64,000 nt of DNA. Source: Croceibacterium salegens (lineage in GTDB: Bacteria; Pseudomonadota; Alphaproteobacteria; Sphingomonadales; Sphingomonadaceae). A program made the translations under genes and the position numbers. This document shows, one piece after another, positions 42,513 to 49,681 of the stretch. The notes beneath the pieces are model-generated. The model ran no database searches and was not told where the DNA came from. It was given only the letters and a program-made list of their open reading frames with translations. The stretch is from the NCBI RefSeq assembly GCF_009827435.1, contig NZ_WTYM01000041.1, forward strand, positions 1-64,000, written 5' to 3'. Each line of letters begins with the position of its first letter. Positions within the stretch are counted from its first letter, which is position 1.

Positions 42513-43850
42513 TCACGGCGCCTCGCCAGCCGTGGGCGGATGCGGAGTCAGCCGCGACATGACGTACCAGGCGAGCGCGCCGAGCGCGATGTAGGTGGCG
42601 ATCCCGCCAACCGCGACCGCCAGCCCCACTGTGACCGCCGTAGCCGAATCCCAGACCCAGAGGATCACTCCGGCGAGGACGATGAAACCGGCAAGGCGGC
42701 CGTACAGCGCATAGCGCGCGTGCCCGGTCGAATGCAGCACCGGCTCGAACGCCACGCTGGCGAGTTCGAGGCTGGCGGCGAAGGTCAGCGGCACGAGGAC
42801 TGCGTATCCAGCCTCGAAGTCGCTGCCGCCGATCAGGTCGAGCAGCGGCTTGCCGAACAGTACGGCAAGGATGACCACCACCGCTCCTGCGGCCGCGGCA
42901 ATCAGCGAAGTCTGCCGCACAAGACGGCGGAACTCGGCGTGCTCGGCGGCGACGCGGGCGCGGTTGATCTCGGCGTAGGCGGCGCGAGTCAGAAGCACCG
43001 AAAGCTTGCCCAGCCCTTGGCTGAGCTGGTTGGCGAGCCGGTAGAGACCGGCGGCGCGGGTGCCGACGAGATAGCCGACCGCGAGCAGGGGGCCTTGCTT
43101 GACCGCGGCATCAAGCGTCGCACTGGCGAAAGCGACGAGCGAGAAGCGCACGATCCCCGGGTTGTCCTCGCCCGCCTGGCGCCAGTCGTGCAGGTGGCGC
43201 AGGTTGACCGCCTCCGGGCACAGGCGCCGCGCCAGGATCCAGTATCCGCCCGCCTCGATCAGGTCGATCGCCGCCCAGGCGGCGAGGAACCAGACCACCT
43301 TCGGATCGGTCAGCCAGATGGCCACCGCGGCGACGAGCCGCAGGCTGGGGACCAGCGCTTCCACATAGACCCCGAGGTCGAAGCGATCGAGCGCGCGGAC
43401 GATCCCGGTCGGCGTCGAAACCAGCGCGAACAGGCTGGCCACGGTGAACCAGAACGCCGCGTGGAGATATTTGGGGTTGAGGCCGAGCGCCTCGTTGAAC
43501 TCGAAATAGATCACGAACGCTATGATCACGCCGATCAGCGCTCCGGCGAGGTCGAGCAGTGCCGAGAGCATCGACAGCCGCCCGAACGCGGCCCAGTTGC
43601 CTGTATGGACGTGCTCGGCCCCGTAGCGCACCACCACGCGCCAGGTCTGCAGGCCCGAGAAGGCGATCAGTGCCTGCGCCGATCCGAAAATTAGCGAGAA
43701 GTGGCCGAAATCCTTGAGCCCGAGCGAGCGGGCAAGGATCGCGAGATAGACGAGGCTGCACAGCCCGCCGAACCCCTTGCCGCCAAGCAGCCAGGCGGTG
43801 TTCGCCAGCATGCGTCCAAGCAGCGAGCGGGGCTGGGAGGGAGCTGGCAT
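42513..43850 (-). CDS. Polysaccharide flippase, Wzx/MATE-like
   Basis: A 445-residue membrane protein with about 12-14 segments, starting LANTAWLLGGKGFGGLCSLV and LGLKDFGHFSLIFG, the typical opening of O-antigen and oligosaccharide flippases of the MOP superfamily. It would move a lipid-linked glycan or related lipid across the inner membrane. It diverges from the nucleotidyltransferase gene across 93 bases, which places it beside the putative headgroup cluster. ATG 43850 was chosen because the long upstream in-phase frame lies opposite that neighbour. Confidence 0.87.
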   Translation of the reverse strand: MPAPSQPRSLLGRMLANTAWLLGGKGFGGLCSLVYLAILARSLGLKDFGHFSLIFGSAQALIAFSGLQTWRVVVRYGAEHVHTGNWAAFGRLSMLSALLDLAGALIGVIIAFVIYFEFNEALGLNPKYLHAAFWFTVASLFALVSTPTGIVRALDRFDLGVYVEALVPSLRLVAAVAIWLTDPKVVWFLAAWAAIDLIEAGGYWILARRLCPEAVNLRHLHDWRQAGEDNPGIVRFSLVAFASATLDAAVKQGPLLAVGYLVGTRAAGLYRLANQLSQGLGKLSVLLTRAAYAEINRARVAAEHAEFRRLVRQTSLIAAAAGAVVVILAVLFGKPLLDLIGGSDFEAGYAVLVPLTFAASLELASVAFEPVLHSTGHARYALYGRLAGFIVLAGVILWVWDSATAVTVGLAVAVGGIATYIALGALAWYVMSRLTPHPPTAGEAP

Positions 43851-43943: not shown

Positions 43944-44684
43944 ATGATCGAGAACGCCATCCTGCTCAGCGCCGGCCAGGGCAGCCGCTTGCTGCCACTG
44001 ACCGCCGAACGCCCGAAATGCCTGATCGACTTCTCGGGCCGCTCGCTGATCGGCTGGCAGGTCGAGATGCTGGCGCGAGGCGGCGTGAAGCGGATCGACG
44101 TCGTCACCGGGTTCATGACCGACATGGTCGAGGCACACCTCACCGCCATCGCCGACCCGCGCATCGAGCTGCACGTCCACTTCAACCCGTTCTACAAGGT
44201 CGCCGACAACCTCGGTTCGTGCTGGATCGTGCGCGACCGCATGGCCGCGGGCGACTTCCTGATCCTCAACGGCGACACGCTCGTCGGCGAGGATATCGTC
44301 GCCAGCGTCCAGCAGGCCTCCGGCTGGCCGGTGTCCGTCACGGTCGACGTGAAGGCCGAATACGACAGCGACGACATGAAGGTCGAACGCGCCGCCGACG
44401 GTCGCCTTGTGCACATCGGCAAGACCCTGACCGCCGAGCAGTCGAACGCGGAATCGATCGGCTTCCTCGCCTTCCGCGGCGATGGGGCGGAAGCGTTCCG
44501 CGAAGCGATACGGCAGGCGATGCGCACGCCCGACGGGGTCAATCACTGGTACCTCAAGGTCGTCGACACCCTCGCCGCGAGCGGCAAGGTCGGCACCTGT
44601 TCGATCGAAGGTCTGGGCTGGGCCGAAGTCGACTACCTCAACGACATCGAGGATGCAACCGCGCTGACCGACAGCTGGGCCTAG
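43944..44684 (+). CDS. Sugar-phosphate or phosphoalcohol nucleotidyltransferase
   Basis: A 246-residue nucleotidyltransferase with the signature AILLSAGQGSRLLPLTAERP near the N-terminus, KCLIDFSG, and an acidic ILNGDTLVGEDI that holds the metal. Proteins of this size with NADNLGSCWI-like segments include inositol- or choline-phosphate cytidylyltransferases and sugar nucleotidyltransferases; substrate cannot be fixed. Near the CDP-alcohol phosphatidyltransferase, a CDP-headgroup product is an attractive inference. Its stop overlaps the convergent HIT gene. Confidence 0.82.
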   Translation: MIENAILLSAGQGSRLLPLTAERPKCLIDFSGRSLIGWQVEMLARGGVKRIDVVTGFMTDMVEAHLTAIADPRIELHVHFNPFYKVADNLGSCWIVRDRMAAGDFLILNGDTLVGEDIVASVQQASGWPVSVTVDVKAEYDSDDMKVERAADGRLVHIGKTLTAEQSNAESIGFLAFRGDGAEAFREAIRQAMRTPDGVNHWYLKVVDTLAASGKVGTCSIEGLGWAEVDYLNDIEDATALTDSWA

Positions 44685-45106
44685 AAGCGGGCCTTCAGTT
44701 CCGCCACCAGCGCATCGCATTGCGCGTCATCGAGCGCTACCGCCTGTCCAAGCTGCGGCACCGCCGGCCAGCCGGCATCGGCAAAGCTCACGCCGCCGAA
44801 TTCGCGCGCGCCCTCGTAGCGCGGGATGACGTGGAAATGGACGTGCGGGTCGACCATCATCAGCATCAGGTAGTTGAGCTTCGCGTACCCGCAGAAATCG
44901 GCCAGCGCCGCCTCGATAGCCGAGGTCACCGACTTCAGTTCGGCATGCGCCTCGCCCGGCAGGTCGCCGAACGCGGTGGCATCGCTCTTCGCTGCCAGCA
45001 CGAGGCAGCCGAGCGTCGGCTGCGCCGGGCGCAGCAGCACGACCCAGTGTTCGAACTCCCGGACCAGCGTCGCCGGCCAGCCGAATTTCTCGATCGTCGC
45101 GTTCAT
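44681..45106 (-). CDS. HIT-family protein
   Basis: A 141-residue histidine-triad hydrolase with the motif HVHFHVIPR (about residues 88-96). Members act on nucleoside phosphoramidates, dinucleotides or nucleotide-linked sugars. Here it lies four bases downstream of the phosphatidyltransferase gene on the same strand, consistent with removing or salvaging nucleotide products of that pathway, though this is inference. Confidence 0.9.
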   Translation of the reverse strand: MNATIEKFGWPATLVREFEHWVVLLRPAQPTLGCLVLAAKSDATAFGDLPGEAHAELKSVTSAIEAALADFCGYAKLNYLMLMMVDPHVHFHVIPRYEGAREFGGVSFADAGWPAVPQLGQAVALDDAQCDALVAELKARF

Positions 45107-45110
45107 CGCC

Positions 45111-46229
45111 TCACCCTTGCGCCAGCCATGACGTCACCGGCCGGCCGCTGCGTTGCTGCGCCACGGCCTGCACCAGCCGCACGAGATGCACCGCGCAGCT
45201 TAGCACGGTCCACACCGCCACCGCGACGATGCCGATGTCTGGACGGCCGAACAGCAGGGCGACGAAGAGGACCACCATGTTGGGATTGCGCCGCGCGGTA
45301 ATCAGGCGGAAGCGGCTGTCGAAGCGCTCCCAGACGTGGATGTGGATGCCGCCGAACCAGGCGATGAAGGCCCCCTCGATCAGCCGCTGCAAAACGTAGC
45401 CGCCGACGATCGCGCCCTGCACCCACCAGAACGTGCTGTCGGACAGAGCGAGGCCCCAAGTGGCGAGGCCGGTCGCCCAGAACCACCACCAGAACGGCGG
45501 GTGGACGAGGTCTATCCCGTGGTCGAGCACGTCGCCGAACTTGCTCGAGGTGATGGTGCAGCGCGCCAGCTTGCCGTCCACGGTGTCGAGCACCATGAAG
45601 ACGAAGCCCATTGCCATGCCGAGCCAGTAGTGCCCGTGCGCGAAGGCGACCGTCGCGGCGACGCAGAGCACCGCGCCGACCGCGCTCACCGCGTTGGGGC
45701 TGAGCCCGGCCCAGGCGGCGAAGCGTGTCAGCCACAGCGCCAGTTCGGGCCACAGGTACTTTGTCAGCAGGTCGGTGACGCCTTTGTAGGCGCCGAAATA
45801 GCTCGCCCGCTCGACCGCCCGGCGATTGTCGGCGGTAAGTTCGGTCAGGAACGGGCGTTCGCGCTTGCGCAGCACCTTGTTCTCGATGGCCGCGCCGTCC
45901 TCGTAGGCGGTGGCGGTAATGCCCTCGGGCAGCGGCGCGCCATCGCGGATCGCCGCGCGCAGGGCGGCCGCCTCGTGTTCGTTGCGAGCATGGGCCAACA
46001 CCGGGACGCCGCCCAGGGTCACGACCATGCCGGGGTGCGCGGCGACGTGGCCTAGCCAGGCCGGGTCGAAGGCATGGTCGGCGTTGACCAGCACGACCGG
46101 CGTGCCGGTTCCGCCGAGTCCGGCCTTGGCGGCCATGCGCCGCACCCGCTCGCCGGTGTCGAGACCCCACATCCGGACCGGGTTGGCGCCGACGGTTTCG
46201 ACGGAAATGGCGGGCTCGGTTTCGCTCAT
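45111..46229 (-). CDS. CDP-alcohol phosphatidyltransferase with an extra N-terminal domain
   Basis: Joins an alcohol to a phosphoryl group from a CDP-linked donor in the membrane. The 372-residue protein has the complete family motif D-x2-DG-x2-AR-x8-G-x3-D-x3-D: D215, D218, G219, R223, G232, D236 and D240, with several membrane segments after residue 160. The first roughly 130 residues are not part of this family; they contain VVLVNADHAFDPAWLGHVAA and look like a nucleotidyltransferase-type Rossmann remnant, as in bifunctional inositol-phosphate enzymes of archaea and thermophiles, but lack the full signature. ATG 46229 was chosen. It diverges from the lipid kinase gene. Confidence 0.85.
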   Translation of the reverse strand: MSETEPAISVETVGANPVRMWGLDTGERVRRMAAKAGLGGTGTPVVLVNADHAFDPAWLGHVAAHPGMVVTLGGVPVLAHARNEHEAAALRAAIRDGAPLPEGITATAYEDGAAIENKVLRKRERPFLTELTADNRRAVERASYFGAYKGVTDLLTKYLWPELALWLTRFAAWAGLSPNAVSAVGAVLCVAATVAFAHGHYWLGMAMGFVFMVLDTVDGKLARCTITSSKFGDVLDHGIDLVHPPFWWWFWATGLATWGLALSDSTFWWVQGAIVGGYVLQRLIEGAFIAWFGGIHIHVWERFDSRFRLITARRNPNMVVLFVALLFGRPDIGIVAVAVWTVLSCAVHLVRLVQAVAQQRSGRPVTSWLAQG

Positions 46230-46292: not shown

Positions 46293-47321
46293 ATGGCGAG
46301 TAAGCGCACCCCTGCAATGAGCGACGGCATCAAGACCTTCGACGAGCTCCCGCGGCCCGCCCCGGGATCTGGTGTCGACCCGGGGGTCGCGCGACGTACC
46401 GAACGAAGCGCCCCGCTGGTCGGGGTCATCCGCAACTCGCGCAGCTATCGCAACAAGGGCCGCGAGCAAGGCGTTGCGCCCGGCGTCGACGTCATCGTCG
46501 AAACCACCACCAAGCGCCGCGAGCTGGTCGGCGTGCTCGACGGCTTCGCGGCCAAGGGCATAGACTACCTCGCCATTTCCGGCGGCGACGGCACCGTGCG
46601 CGACGTGCTGACCTGCGGCGCGGAAATCTTTGGAACCGACTGGCCGACACTCATCGTCCTGCCCAAGGGCAAGACCAATGCGCTCGCCGCCGATCTCGGC
46701 GCGCCGGAGAACTGGTCGCTTGCCGCGGCGATGGAATCCGCCCGCGCCGGCCACTTCGTGACGCGCCGGCCGCTGGTCGTGTCCGTAGCCGCCGATCCGC
46801 AGGCGCGGGTCTACGGCTTCCTGTTCGGCGGGGGGGTGTTCCACCGCACCATCAAGCTTGGGCAAGGCGCCCATCGCTGGGGCGCGTTCAACGCCGCCGC
46901 GGTCGGCCTGACGACGGCATGGGCGCTCGGCCAAGCGCTGCTCGCCGGAAGCGAAAACCCGTGGCGCCAGCGCTCGCTCATGCGGATTACCCTGCCGGGA
47001 ACCGAACAGCTGTCCGGCGGAGACGAGCGCTATGTGATGATCGCCTCGACGCTCGAGAATCTTCCGCTCGGGGTCAAACCGTTCGGGAACCTGCGCGAAG
47101 GGCTCAAGGCCATCGTCCTCGACACGCCGGCGCGGCGCAGCCTGATGCACCTGCCGATGGTCGCGCTGGGCCGGCGCAAGGACGGGCGCGGCTACCATTG
47201 TTTTGCTGCCGAGAGCTTCGGGCTCGACATTACCGAGCCCTTCATCCTCGACGGCGAGGCCTTCCCGCCGGGCAACTACCGCATCTCGACCGGCCCCTCG
47301 CTGACGTTCGTCGCGTCGTGA
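46293..47321 (+). CDS. DAGK-family lipid kinase
   Basis: A 342-residue kinase of the diacylglycerol/sphingosine/ceramide kinase fold: SGGDGTVRDVL holds the GGDGT loop at 97-101, LPKGKTNALAADLG follows, and the C-terminal ILDGEAFPPGNYRIS matches the family end. It would phosphorylate a lipid hydroxyl such as diacylglycerol or ceramide. ATG 46293 was chosen; ATG 46317 is in phase. It overlaps the next gene (GTGA). I recall that Caulobacter uses a DAGK-family ceramide kinase (CpgB) for its anionic sphingolipid; whether this is its counterpart is not shown by this sequence. Confidence 0.87.
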   Translation: MASKRTPAMSDGIKTFDELPRPAPGSGVDPGVARRTERSAPLVGVIRNSRSYRNKGREQGVAPGVDVIVETTTKRRELVGVLDGFAAKGIDYLAISGGDGTVRDVLTCGAEIFGTDWPTLIVLPKGKTNALAADLGAPENWSLAAAMESARAGHFVTRRPLVVSVAADPQARVYGFLFGGGVFHRTIKLGQGAHRWGAFNAAAVGLTTAWALGQALLAGSENPWRQRSLMRITLPGTEQLSGGDERYVMIASTLENLPLGVKPFGNLREGLKAIVLDTPARRSLMHLPMVALGRRKDGRGYHCFAAESFGLDITEPFILDGEAFPPGNYRISTGPSLTFVAS

Positions 47322-48220
47322 ATGAAGCGCTTGAAACGCGCGTTTCGGCGATGCTCGCGCGCGAAGTTCGTCCCGAAGTCGTTCGGCAGGCGCAAGTACT
47401 CGGTGAAGAGGCCGGAGCGCTGGCGGTGCTGTTCTACGGTTCGAACCTGAGGACCGGCTCGCTCGAAGGGGTGCTCGACTACTACGCGCTGCTCCCGGGT
47501 CCGGCCGAGACCGGGCTGTGGCCGCGCGTTTCCTACCGCGAGTGGGACGACGCCGGAACCGGCGAGCGGCTGCGCGCCAAGTTCGCCGAAATGTCGCTCG
47601 CCAAGTTCGCCGAGGCAGCAAGCGGCCGAAGCCTCGACACGACGATCTGGGCGAGGTTCGTCCAGCCCAGCGCGATGGTCTGGGCGAAGGACGAAGCGGC
47701 GGCGGCGGCTGTCCGCGAGGCGATTGCCGAAGCCGCCCGCACCGCCGCCCGCCTCGCCGCCGCGCTCGGCCCGGCGAAGGGGCAGCCGGACGACTATTGG
47801 AAGGCGCTGTTCCGCGCCACCTATCGGGCCGAATTGCGGGTCGAGGCGCCGGGGCGCGAGAATTCGATCCTTGCCGCCAACCCGGCGCACTTCGACGGCC
47901 TGCTGCGCGCCGCACTGGTTTCCGCCGGGGTGCCGTTCCGCGACGACGGCGGACACATCGCCCCGCAGATCGAGCCGGGCGAACGGCGCGCCATCCTGAA
48001 CTGGTGGAACAAGCGCCGCCGGCTCGGCAAGGCGCTCAACGCCGCGCGGCTGGTGCGGGCCAATTCGACCTTTGCCGGGGCCCCGCAGTACATCGCCTGG
48101 AAGATCGAGCGCCATACCGGCGTCGCGGTCGAGGTCACCCCGTGGCGCGAGAAGCACCCGCTCCTCGCCGCGCCGGGAGTGCTGTGGAAGGTGTGGCGCT
48201 CGCGCCGCAAACCCGGGTGA
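47318..48220 (+). CDS. Nucleotidyltransferase-like protein of unknown family
   Basis: I do not recognise a named family for this 300-residue protein. The N-terminal segment ALAVLFYGSNLRTGSLEGVL has the GS...D pattern of the nucleotidyltransferase superfamily (G41-S42, with D54), which resembles the phosphatidate cytidylyltransferase Tam41 of mitochondria, and a C-terminal segment is basic (NKRRRLGKALNAARLVR). No signal peptide or transmembrane helix. GTG 47318 overlaps the lipid kinase stop, and the next gene overlaps in turn (GTGA), so the three are one transcript. A CDP-lipid synthase function is a suggestion only. Confidence 0.65.
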   Translation: MNEALETRVSAMLAREVRPEVVRQAQVLGEEAGALAVLFYGSNLRTGSLEGVLDYYALLPGPAETGLWPRVSYREWDDAGTGERLRAKFAEMSLAKFAEAASGRSLDTTIWARFVQPSAMVWAKDEAAAAAVREAIAEAARTAARLAAALGPAKGQPDDYWKALFRATYRAELRVEAPGRENSILAANPAHFDGLLRAALVSAGVPFRDDGGHIAPQIEPGERRAILNWWNKRRRLGKALNAARLVRANSTFAGAPQYIAWKIERHTGVAVEVTPWREKHPLLAAPGVLWKVWRSRRKPG

Positions 48221-48969
48221 GCGCGCCGGTCCTGATCCTCGCCGGGAGCCGCCCCGACGGTCTCGACCCGATCGCCACGGCCGAGGACGTGCCGCACAAG
48301 GCGCTCGCCCGGGTCGGCGGGCTGACGCTCCTCGAGCGGGCAGTCGCCGCAGCCCGGGCCTGGGGCGCGAGCGAAGTGCTCGTCGCGGCGAACAACCCGG
48401 CGGTGGAGGACGAAGTCCGGCGGCTCGGCGCGACCCTGCTGCCGACTGCGAGCGGCCCGAGCGGCAGCGTCGCGCTGGCTTTCGAACGCACCGGCGCGCC
48501 GCTGCTGGTCACCACCGCCGACCACGCCCTGCTCGAACCCGGCTGGCTCGCCGCGCTGGTCGCCGGAACTCCGGCCGACGCCGACGTGTCGCTGATGCTG
48601 GCGCGGCGCGAGGCGGTCGAGGCCGCTGCGCCGGGCAGCCAGCGGACATGGCTGTCGCTGGCCGACGGCGACTGGTCGGGGTGCAACCTGTTTTATCTCG
48701 CGTCCGCAGCCGCTCCGACGGCGCTTGCCACCTGGCGCCGGGTCGAGGCCGACCGCAAGCGCCCATGGCGCATCGCCGCCCGGCTAGGCTGGGGCACCTT
48801 GTGGAATTTCCTGCGCGGCAAGCTGACGATGGCCGAGGCCGTCGCGCGCATAGGGCAGCGCATCGGTATCACCGCGGCGCTGGTCGCAGCGACCGACGGG
48901 CGCGCGGCGATCGATGTCGACAAGCCCGCCGACCTCGCGCTCGTGCGCGCGCTGGCCGAAGCTCAGTAG
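48217..48969 (+). CDS. MobA-like nucleotidyltransferase
   Basis: A 250-residue MobA-like NTP transferase: LILAGSRPDG at the start, HKALARVGGLTLLERAVAAA, and a central LLVTTADHALLEPGWLAAL. The usual loop GxGxR is degenerate (AGSRPDG), but the acidic DH residues remain. Coupled with GTGA to the preceding gene, it is a second nucleotidyltransferase in the cluster and could activate a headgroup alcohol phosphate. Molybdenum cofactor biosynthesis is unlikely because no other mo gene is near. Confidence 0.78.
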   Translation: MSAPVLILAGSRPDGLDPIATAEDVPHKALARVGGLTLLERAVAAARAWGASEVLVAANNPAVEDEVRRLGATLLPTASGPSGSVALAFERTGAPLLVTTADHALLEPGWLAALVAGTPADADVSLMLARREAVEAAAPGSQRTWLSLADGDWSGCNLFYLASAAAPTALATWRRVEADRKRPWRIAARLGWGTLWNFLRGKLTMAEAVARIGQRIGITAALVAATDGRAAIDVDKPADLALVRALAEAQ

Positions 48970-49466
48970 TAGCGCATCGTGATGGAAATCGGCTTGACCG
49001 CGTTGCCGACCTCGAAGGCGGTCTTCTTGTAGCTCGGCCGGCCCATGTTGAAGAGATTGAGCGAGGGGTTGTTCGACATGCCGCCACCGTCCAGCGTCAT
49101 GTCGGTCTCGCCGTTACCGTTGATATCGTGACGAATGGCGATGCCGTAGGTGCCGGCAGCGGGCACCGGCATGCAGAAGGTCATCTGCCCGGCCTTGGCC
49201 GGGGTCTCGATGCGGTTGATCCACTTGCCCTTTTCGAGCCAGTCGGACGACGCGCTGCGATAGAGCTGGACGCGCATCGTCCCCGTCGAGGCCTTGATGC
49301 CGCTGACGGTAATCAGGACGGACGGCTTCTCCCCACGGCAGGCGGCCGGGTTGTTGGAGATCGTGTTGCGATAGGTCACCCCCTGCGCGCCGGCGAAGCT
49401 CGCCCCGGCAAGCGCAGCAAGCGCAAGCCCGGTAGCGGCAAGGCGAATGGTCACTGGACGGCTCAT
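48963..49466 (-). CDS. DUF2141 exported protein
   Basis: A 167-residue protein with a signal peptide (ATGLALAALAGASFAGA) and a DUF2141 body: SGIKASTGTMRVQLYR, then GTYGIAIRHDINGNGETDMT, an EF-hand-like D-x-N-x-N-G loop that may bind calcium. Family function is unknown. ATG 49466 was chosen because a GGAG lies 9 bases upstream; ATG 49481 is the in-phase alternative. Its 3' end overlaps the convergent nucleotidyltransferase gene by seven bases. Confidence 0.85.
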   Translation of the reverse strand: MSRPVTIRLAATGLALAALAGASFAGAQGVTYRNTISNNPAACRGEKPSVLITVSGIKASTGTMRVQLYRSASSDWLEKGKWINRIETPAKAGQMTFCMPVPAAGTYGIAIRHDINGNGETDMTLDGGGMSNNPSLNLFNMGRPSYKKTAFEVGNAVKPISITMRYY

Positions 49467-49681
49467 CAAGTCGAACTCCATCGGTCGTCGGGCGCTTGTT
49501 ATCTGTGCGGAAATGAAATGGCCCCGTTCGCAGGCGATTTCTAGCCGAGCGCGCTGAATAGCCTGTGAACTTGGCTGTCAGGAGCGCTAAAGCACCGATT
49601 AGCCGCCTTGCGGCGGTGGATAACGCACCGGGCACGTTTTATGCCCGAGTCCCATACCGCTAAGGCGGCGAAGGCAGCGCC

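Follow-up and report, generated by a model that had tools for sequence, protein, structure and literature searches.

What does the protein encoded between a lipid kinase gene and a nucleotidyltransferase gene in Croceibacterium salegens do? The question is raised by the window analysed here, a stretch of 64,000 nucleotides (positions 1 to 64,000 of the forward strand of contig NZ_WTYM01000041.1, assembly GCF_009827435.1) from a genome of 3.6 Mb. An original prediction, made from the letters of the window, had described an unassigned protein with a nucleotidyltransferase GS...D pattern, likened it to Tam41-type cytidine diphosphate (CDP)-diacylglycerol synthases and proposed that a lipid phosphate is activated to a CDP-lipid. 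Our analysis indicates that the gene probably encodes the CpgC step of ceramide phosphoglycerate (CPG) synthesis, in which a cytidine triphosphate (CTP):ceramide-1-phosphate cytidylyltransferase with the Tam41 fold would form CDP-ceramide.

47318..48220, + strand: cpgC-like gene, 300 aa, predicted CTP:ceramide-1-phosphate cytidylyltransferase with Tam41 fold (open reading frame, homologues, AlphaFold2 model, fold search and context)

The open reading frame is intact, running from a GTG start at 47318 to a TGA stop at 48218-48220, and the LFYGSNLRTGS string (residues 38-48) and the numbering of G41, S42 and D54 in the original prediction proved correct. Among the best 80 of at least 586 loci, the best named match of the protein is from Croceibacterium soli (71%).

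By itself the string is weak evidence, and conservation was followed in two sets of sequences. The first, aligned over the full length, comprised the window protein and 29 relatives, and G41, S42 and D54 are kept in all 30 sequences. The second (A2) comprised the window protein and 47 homologues, drawn from searches at the level of relatives, class and phylum and thinned from 81 to at most about 62% identity; L190-L193 were excluded because of their odd length. In A2 the residues Y40, G41, D54, P69, K88, W111, R113, Q116, P117, E172, R174, E176, Y258, K262 and H266 are invariant (48/48), and S42 is replaced once, by Ala. The conservation of G41, S42 and D54, whose absence would have refuted the original prediction, thus extends to divergent homologues. 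The conserved elements are:

47432..47443, + strand: GS nucleotide-binding motif F39-Y40-G41-S42 (Y40 and G41 in 48/48, S42 in 47/48, F39 in 42/48)
47477..47479, + strand: D54, lone catalytic-type acidic residue (48/48; position 56 is Tyr in 46/48)
47579..47581, + strand: K88, invariant Lys (48/48; the L161 equivalent aligns with a Lys of S. pombe Tam41 in a weak phmmer match, E 1.6)
47648..47668, + strand: W111-A-R-F-V-Q-P117 motif (W111, R113, Q116 and P117 in 48/48)
47831..47845, + strand: E172-x-R174-x-E176 motif (all three residues in 48/48)

Ordinary nucleotidyltransferases carry a second acid two positions after the first. Here a single catalytic-type Asp is conserved, the place of the second acid being taken by Tyr in 46 of 48 sequences. 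Tam41 retains one of the three acids of the nucleotidyltransferase fold (PMC11646218), and a D54 standing alone fits such a single-acid active site.

We then turned to the fold. The AlphaFold2 model of the target, built with alignment A1, reached a mean predicted local distance difference test score (pLDDT) of 92.5 and a predicted template modelling score of 0.89. The top five PDB chains returned by Foldseek were all Tam41 (6ig4, 6ig2 and 7ecd; E 2e-7 to 1e-6), with aminoglycoside nucleotidyltransferases next at 1.6e-4. With VIA-align, 215 residues were aligned with 7ecd, a CTP-Mg complex, at Z 17.1 and 3.1 Å (model residues 14-252, about 14% identity); the S. pombe Tam41 structures 6ig4 and 6ig2 gave Z 16.1 and 15.7, and the next family gave Z 6.8 over 112 residues. 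The predicted model therefore spans both the nucleotidyltransferase domain and the Tam41-type second domain. A model of the diverged relative L135, which is 31% identical to the window protein, gave Z 19.7, 17.4 and 16.7, as against 7.2 for the next family. L135 also exceeds the gathering cut-off of the Tam41 family PF09139 (28.8 versus 24 bits), and L161 falls just under it (21.8 bits). In the weak match of L161 to S. pombe Tam41 (6ig2, E 1.6), KYAV pairs with KYGV and ARFAQP with GRFQKP, so that R, F and P of the L161 counterpart of the W-A-R-F-V-Q-P motif pair with R, F and P of Tam41. Taken together, conservation and fold place the GS...D string beyond chance.

The likeness to Tam41/TAMM41 (PF09139; 6ig2, 6ig4, 7ecd) lies in the two-domain fold, the GS motif, the single catalytic-type Asp and the basic C-terminal part, without a membrane helix. 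The differences are an identity of about 14%, a window protein that stays under Pfam detection, a sphingolipid rather than a cardiolipin context, and the predicted acceptor, ceramide-1-phosphate. Common descent with Tam41 is well supported. Judged by profile, the target appears to be a distant sister of Tam41 and not a filed member of its family; the statement that it works like Tam41 is supported, the statement that it is a Tam41 is not. Hydropathy predicts no membrane helix in the target (best 19-residue mean 0.99). Its C-terminal 84 residues hold 18 K/R and 5 D/E, and the helical moment of residues 281-297 is low (0.22); Tam41 itself has a positively charged amphipathic C-terminal membrane helix (PMC7018664). 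CdsA (PF01148) and archaeal CarS share the predicted type of reaction, from CTP and a lipid phosphate to a CDP-lipid, but both are membrane-embedded (PMC7018664), unlike the target. A CdsA-type membrane enzyme was ruled out, as the Pfam search gave no CDS profile match and hydropathy no membrane helix. The aminoglycoside nucleotidyltransferases, ANT(4') among them, resemble the target in the fold of the first domain and the GS motif, but the match is limited to about 110 residues. Their active site has two acids. This identity was likewise ruled out, at Z 6.8 and with one domain only.

The second line of evidence is the coupling to the lipid kinase. The genes on either side of the target are:

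46317..47321, + strand: lipid kinase, counterpart of ceramide kinase CpgB (CC_1160), first of a three-gene run (DAGK_cat PF00781, E 2.4e-10)
48217..48969, + strand: MobA/CofC-like nucleotidyltransferase, probable CC_1153 counterpart (PF12804, E 4.5e-15)

GTGA stop/start overlaps occur at both ends of the target gene, with the kinase at 47318-47321 and with the MobA-like gene at 48217-48220, and the three genes therefore look translationally coupled. In a sample of 59 relatives we found the gene in 46, a CerS candidate in 58, the kinase in 43 (threshold E 1e-8) and a CpgA-like protein in 22 (threshold E 1e-20). Wherever the kinase was found it lies directly upstream of cpgC on the same strand (43/43), and at the same threshold it was found in 0 of the 13 relatives that lack the gene; three relatives with the gene gave no kinase match. 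Fisher's test gives p 1.4e-10 for the co-occurrence, but the genomes are related and the events not independent. A CerS candidate is present in all 46 relatives that carry the gene. The 80 named close loci mentioned above are biased toward close relatives; in 74 of them the first recognised gene upstream is the kinase, the MobA-like gene comes next downstream in 17, and the stretch contains a CpgA-like gene in 20, so that the constant unit is the kinase plus the target gene. The proposed coupling to a lipid kinase is thereby borne out. The downstream nucleotidyltransferase is no general partner: it comes next in 17 of 80 close loci, and its Caulobacter counterpart CC_1153 is needed for CPG2, not for CPG (PMC11324152). 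Two relatives, G007 and G021, have a CpgA-like match and no cpgC; the match is weak in G007 (E 1.2e-21) and strong in G021 (64% identity), which has no CerS match.

The lipid that is activated is suggested by the surroundings of the gene. The class-level search found it in 38 of 289 genomes and the phylum-level search in 27 of 398. From the 38 positive genomes we hand-picked 20 loci, among them that of the near relative L160. All but L160 contain one or more of cerR, acpR, spt and CerS in the stretch examined (19 of 20); LptF is present in 18 and LptG in 17. The kinase was recorded in 17 loci, or in 14 after an overlap filter that drops kinases overlapped by over-long open reading frames; L154, L157 and L158 have none. 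The spt and CerS labels were first given by eye. They agree with the Pfam classes found on L147 (AMP-binding, epimerase, phosphopantetheine site, class I/II aminotransferase, metallophosphoesterase, LptF/LptG twice, fatty acid hydroxylase and GNAT) but say more than these classes do. The order in L141 is aasR-cerR-acpR-spt, cpgC, kinase, CDP-alcohol transferase, phosphoesterase, LptF, LptG and CerS. This is the order of Caulobacter CC_1165 to CC_1154 (PMC11324152), except that CC_1157 has no counterpart and that LptG and CerS are separated by two additional genes, for a second CDP-alcohol transferase and for a hydroxylase. L119, the cpgC product of the L141 genome, shares 39% identity with the window protein. 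Because of this sphingolipid context, and because the host genome also encodes a separate ordinary CdsA (PF01148, 140.8 bits), the lipid is most likely ceramide-1-phosphate and not phosphatidate; a bulk CDP-diacylglycerol (CDP-DAG) synthase role for the target is unlikely given that CdsA.

By gene context, the target is the counterpart of Caulobacter crescentus CpgC (CC_1161, CCNA_01219). The likeness is one of context: an adjoining kinase and neighbours like CpgA, CpgD, CC_1153 and the flippase. In contrast to Caulobacter, the CerS-like and serine palmitoyltransferase-like genes sit on other contigs of the host genome, and no CC_1158-type phosphoesterase adjoins the target; scattering of sphingolipid genes in Sphingomonadales has been described (PMC11324152). 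In Caulobacter, CC_1160 (CpgB) is a ceramide kinase, the purified enzyme phosphorylating ceramide (PMC10331486), and CC_1161 mutants lack CPG and CPG2, both restored by complementation (PMC11324152). CC_1159, CC_1153, CC_1152 and in part CC_1158 serve CPG2 formation (PMC11324152), and CpgD makes CDP-glycerate (PMC12275187). CpgC is described as required for the conversion of ceramide-1-phosphate to CPG 'via an unidentified mechanism' (PMC13228409), and papers of 2025 and 2026 put it likewise. For CC_1161, an InterPro domain suggesting a CDP-DAG synthase has been noted and a nucleoside diphosphate-activated ceramide proposed (PMC11324152). The idea of activation is thus partly in print, and the target is the sphingolipid counterpart of a known kind of enzyme; what is new in the present analysis is the Tam41 fold and the tight kinase coupling. 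Tam41 is never mentioned in the accessible text of PMC11324152. A literature search from which subscription papers were mostly absent found neither 'CDP-ceramide' together with 'bacteria' nor a title or abstract opening that assigns the mechanism of CpgC, and Cpg terms were not found in PMC11087976.

The fold, the residue conservation, the gene coupling and the co-occurrence are observations of this analysis, and from the fold, the active site and the coupling we infer that the target protein transfers cytidine monophosphate (CMP). We also infer CTP as the nucleotide, ceramide-1-phosphate as the acceptor, CDP-ceramide as the product, docking on the membrane and an enzyme that uses the product. 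In the first step of such a pathway the ceramide kinase (46317-47321), an activity taken from the Caulobacter papers, would make ceramide-1-phosphate. The target would then hold CTP with its GS motif and Mg2+ with D54, and would transfer CMP to ceramide-1-phosphate, giving pyrophosphate and CDP-ceramide; it has no membrane helices, and its basic C-terminal part is probably what attaches it to the membrane. A CDP-alcohol phosphotransferase would next exchange CMP for glycerate to form CPG, and a second phosphoglycerate would be added by CpgD, CpgA and the CC_1153-type protein.

A number of results weigh against a Tam41-fold enzyme that makes CDP-ceramide. A Pfam search gave zero family matches for the window protein, PF09139 included, and the host genome has no PF09139 match. 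In A2 a PF09139 signal at E <= 1 appears in 3 of 48 sequences only, one of them above the cut-off, and 14 control genomes, including Caulobacter vibrioides, are also without a match. For the Tam41 chains Foldseek gives moderate TM-scores (0.48-0.54 by query length, at 11-14% identity), and a shared fold by itself reveals neither substrate nor nucleotide. We know of no enzyme that uses CDP-ceramide. No CpgA-like match (E 1e-20) was obtained in 26 of the 46 relatives that carry the gene, and 14 of these 26 have at most two PF01066 proteins in all. In Caulobacter, CC_1159 is dispensable for CPG, and for the CC_1161 mutant, beyond the loss of CPG and CPG2, only a moderate rise in ceramide is reported (PMC11324152). 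The resemblance to Tam41 in the original prediction is supported by the fold (Z 17.1, versus 6.8 for the next family) and the single Asp; the Tam41 profile is reached by the relative L135 and not by the window protein. When the PDB was searched by phmmer or with profiles, the window protein, A1, A2, A3, L133 and L135 gave no Tam41 match, L161 alone touching 6ig2 (E 1.6), and NCBIfam gave weak matches only, each to single members of the 48 sequences. Across 398 genomes of the phylum no canonical Tam41 (PF09139) scored above the cut-off, the best hit (E 2.2e-4) being a cpgC relative beside a kinase; as the 14 control genomes are matchless too, this search does not demonstrate that Tam41 is absent from the phylum.

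The scarcity of CDP-alcohol transferases bears on what follows CDP-ceramide. With at most two PF01066 proteins, little is left in the 14 genomes beyond the housekeeping PgsA and phosphatidylserine synthase, as we would name them. Either a housekeeping enzyme accepts CDP-ceramide, or the third step is carried out by another kind of enzyme, or the target makes CPG directly. No dedicated CDP-ceramide partner varying with the gene emerges from the PF01066 counts, which average 3.4 where cpgC is accompanied by a CpgA-like gene and 2.8 in genomes with cpgC only. Direct formation of CPG by the target corresponds to the one-step model that PMC11324152 attributes to Zik et al., in which CpgC itself is the CPG synthase and joins ceramide-1-phosphate to the glycerate unit, perhaps with transient use of a nucleoside triphosphate and with no free CDP-ceramide. 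The many relatives without a dedicated transferase speak for it, as does the finding that, beyond the ceramide genes, only CC_1160 and CC_1161 among the Caulobacter biosynthetic genes tested are needed for CPG (PMC11324152). However, the target has the fold and active site of enzymes that convert CTP and a lipid phosphate to a CDP-lipid, and direct attachment of glycerate is described as energetically not very favourable (PMC11324152). We regard the one-step model as unlikely, yet as the strongest of the alternatives.

It is improbable that the gene encodes a second CDP-DAG synthase acting on phosphatidate and feeding CDP-DAG into a head-group pathway. The closest solved structures are indeed CDP-DAG synthases, but CdsA is already encoded in the genome, the gene is tied to the lipid kinase and to ceramide genes, and loss of CC_1161 removes CPG and CPG2 in Caulobacter (PMC11324152). 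Slightly less credible still is the use of another nucleotide or acceptor, such as activation of a later intermediate or transfer of adenosine or guanosine monophosphate. The fold does not reveal the nucleotide, and the next structural neighbours are the aminoglycoside enzymes; these match about 110 residues of the first domain as against 215 for Tam41, and the need of CC_1161 for CPG itself places its action before CPG (PMC11324152). A role as an inactive or regulatory protein that merely stabilises the kinase would account for the tight linkage (43/43) but is very hard to reconcile with active-site residues invariant in 48/48 and with a purified Caulobacter kinase that phosphorylates ceramide (PMC10331486).

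With CTP:ceramide-1-phosphate cytidylyltransferase as the preferred reading, we tentatively extend it to a scheme that has somewhat less than an even chance: a dedicated Tam41-fold enzyme would open a bacterial CDP-ceramide branch parallel to CDP-DAG, and where a CpgA-like protein is missing, phosphatidylserine synthase (serine resembles glycerate) or PgsA would also take CDP-ceramide. A second CpgA-like CDP-alcohol transferase lies between LptG and the hydroxylase in the LptG-CerS operon of 5 of the 20 class-level loci (L141-L144 and L154; PF01066 E 1.6e-9 in L141), and one is found at a similar place on plasmid pDCB2 (L197:7908-9116). In species that have such a gene, its product could be the missing CPG synthase.

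Ceramide diphosphoglycerate enables Caulobacter to survive without lipopolysaccharide (PMC12275187) and is the presumptive target of polymyxin in that organism (PMC11324152). The Tam41-like assignment reduces the first head-group step to one simple assay, CTP plus ceramide-1-phosphate. If it is true, the Tam41 fold has been put to use on sphingolipids and CDP-ceramide is predicted as a bacterial intermediate.

The remaining genes of the cluster lie upstream of the kinase:

45111..46229, - strand: CDP-alcohol phosphatidyltransferase, probable CpgA (CC_1159) counterpart (PF01066, E 6.6e-9)
44681..45106, - strand: HIT-family protein recurring in such clusters (PF01230, E 2.5e-5)
43944..44684, + strand: nucleotidyltransferase, probable CpgD (CC_1152) counterpart, CTP:phosphoglycerate cytidylyltransferase (PF00483, E 1.1e-12)
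42513..43850, - strand: flippase-like membrane protein, possible CC_1166 counterpart (PF01943, E 3.4e-15)

The 43944-44684 protein matches 1jyk, a CTP:phosphocholine cytidylyltransferase (3.5e-9), as well as 4jd0 (6e-4), which is named as the top structural match of CpgD (PMC12275187). CC_1153 has been described as CofC-like (PMC11324152), and the CofC match of the 48217-48969 protein is weak (E 5e-5, below cut-off). Among the 20 class-level loci, the cpgC genes nearest to that of the window after L160 are those of L147 and L148 (scores 220), both with HIT, flippase and CpgA-like genes. The HIT-family protein recurs in three class-level loci (L147, L148 and L149), in L197 and L199 and in 17 of the 80 close loci, and is not among the genes named in the published sections consulted. 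It might hydrolyse a CDP-linked intermediate.

In a tree of A2, the window cpgC falls in a group of 8 rows (100/99 support) that contains proteins from other orders of the class, and in a wider group of 12 rows with L114, L128, L133 and L184 (99/96); the type from other members of its own family and order forms a separate group of 19 rows (96/95). This placement of the sequences suggests horizontal exchange of the operon. Two plasmids, pDCB2 of the betaproteobacterium Diaphorobacter sp. JS3051 (L197) and pPNP1 of the gammaproteobacterium Pseudomonas sp. JS425 (L198), also carry clusters in which cpgC and the kinase are accompanied by genes for a fatty acyl-AMP ligase, a CDP-alcohol transferase, a CpgD-like protein and LptF/LptG. 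Both plasmids are typed IncP, and pDCB2 is typed conjugative, which makes the pathway look portable. Each of the 17 plasmid rows has 'hypothetical protein' as the annotation beneath the match. Lastly, a DUF2141 protein is encoded at 48963-49481 of the window; its gene is within the examined stretch in 79 of the 80 close loci, directly follows cpgC among the recognised genes in 63 and is present in 5 of the 20 class-level loci.

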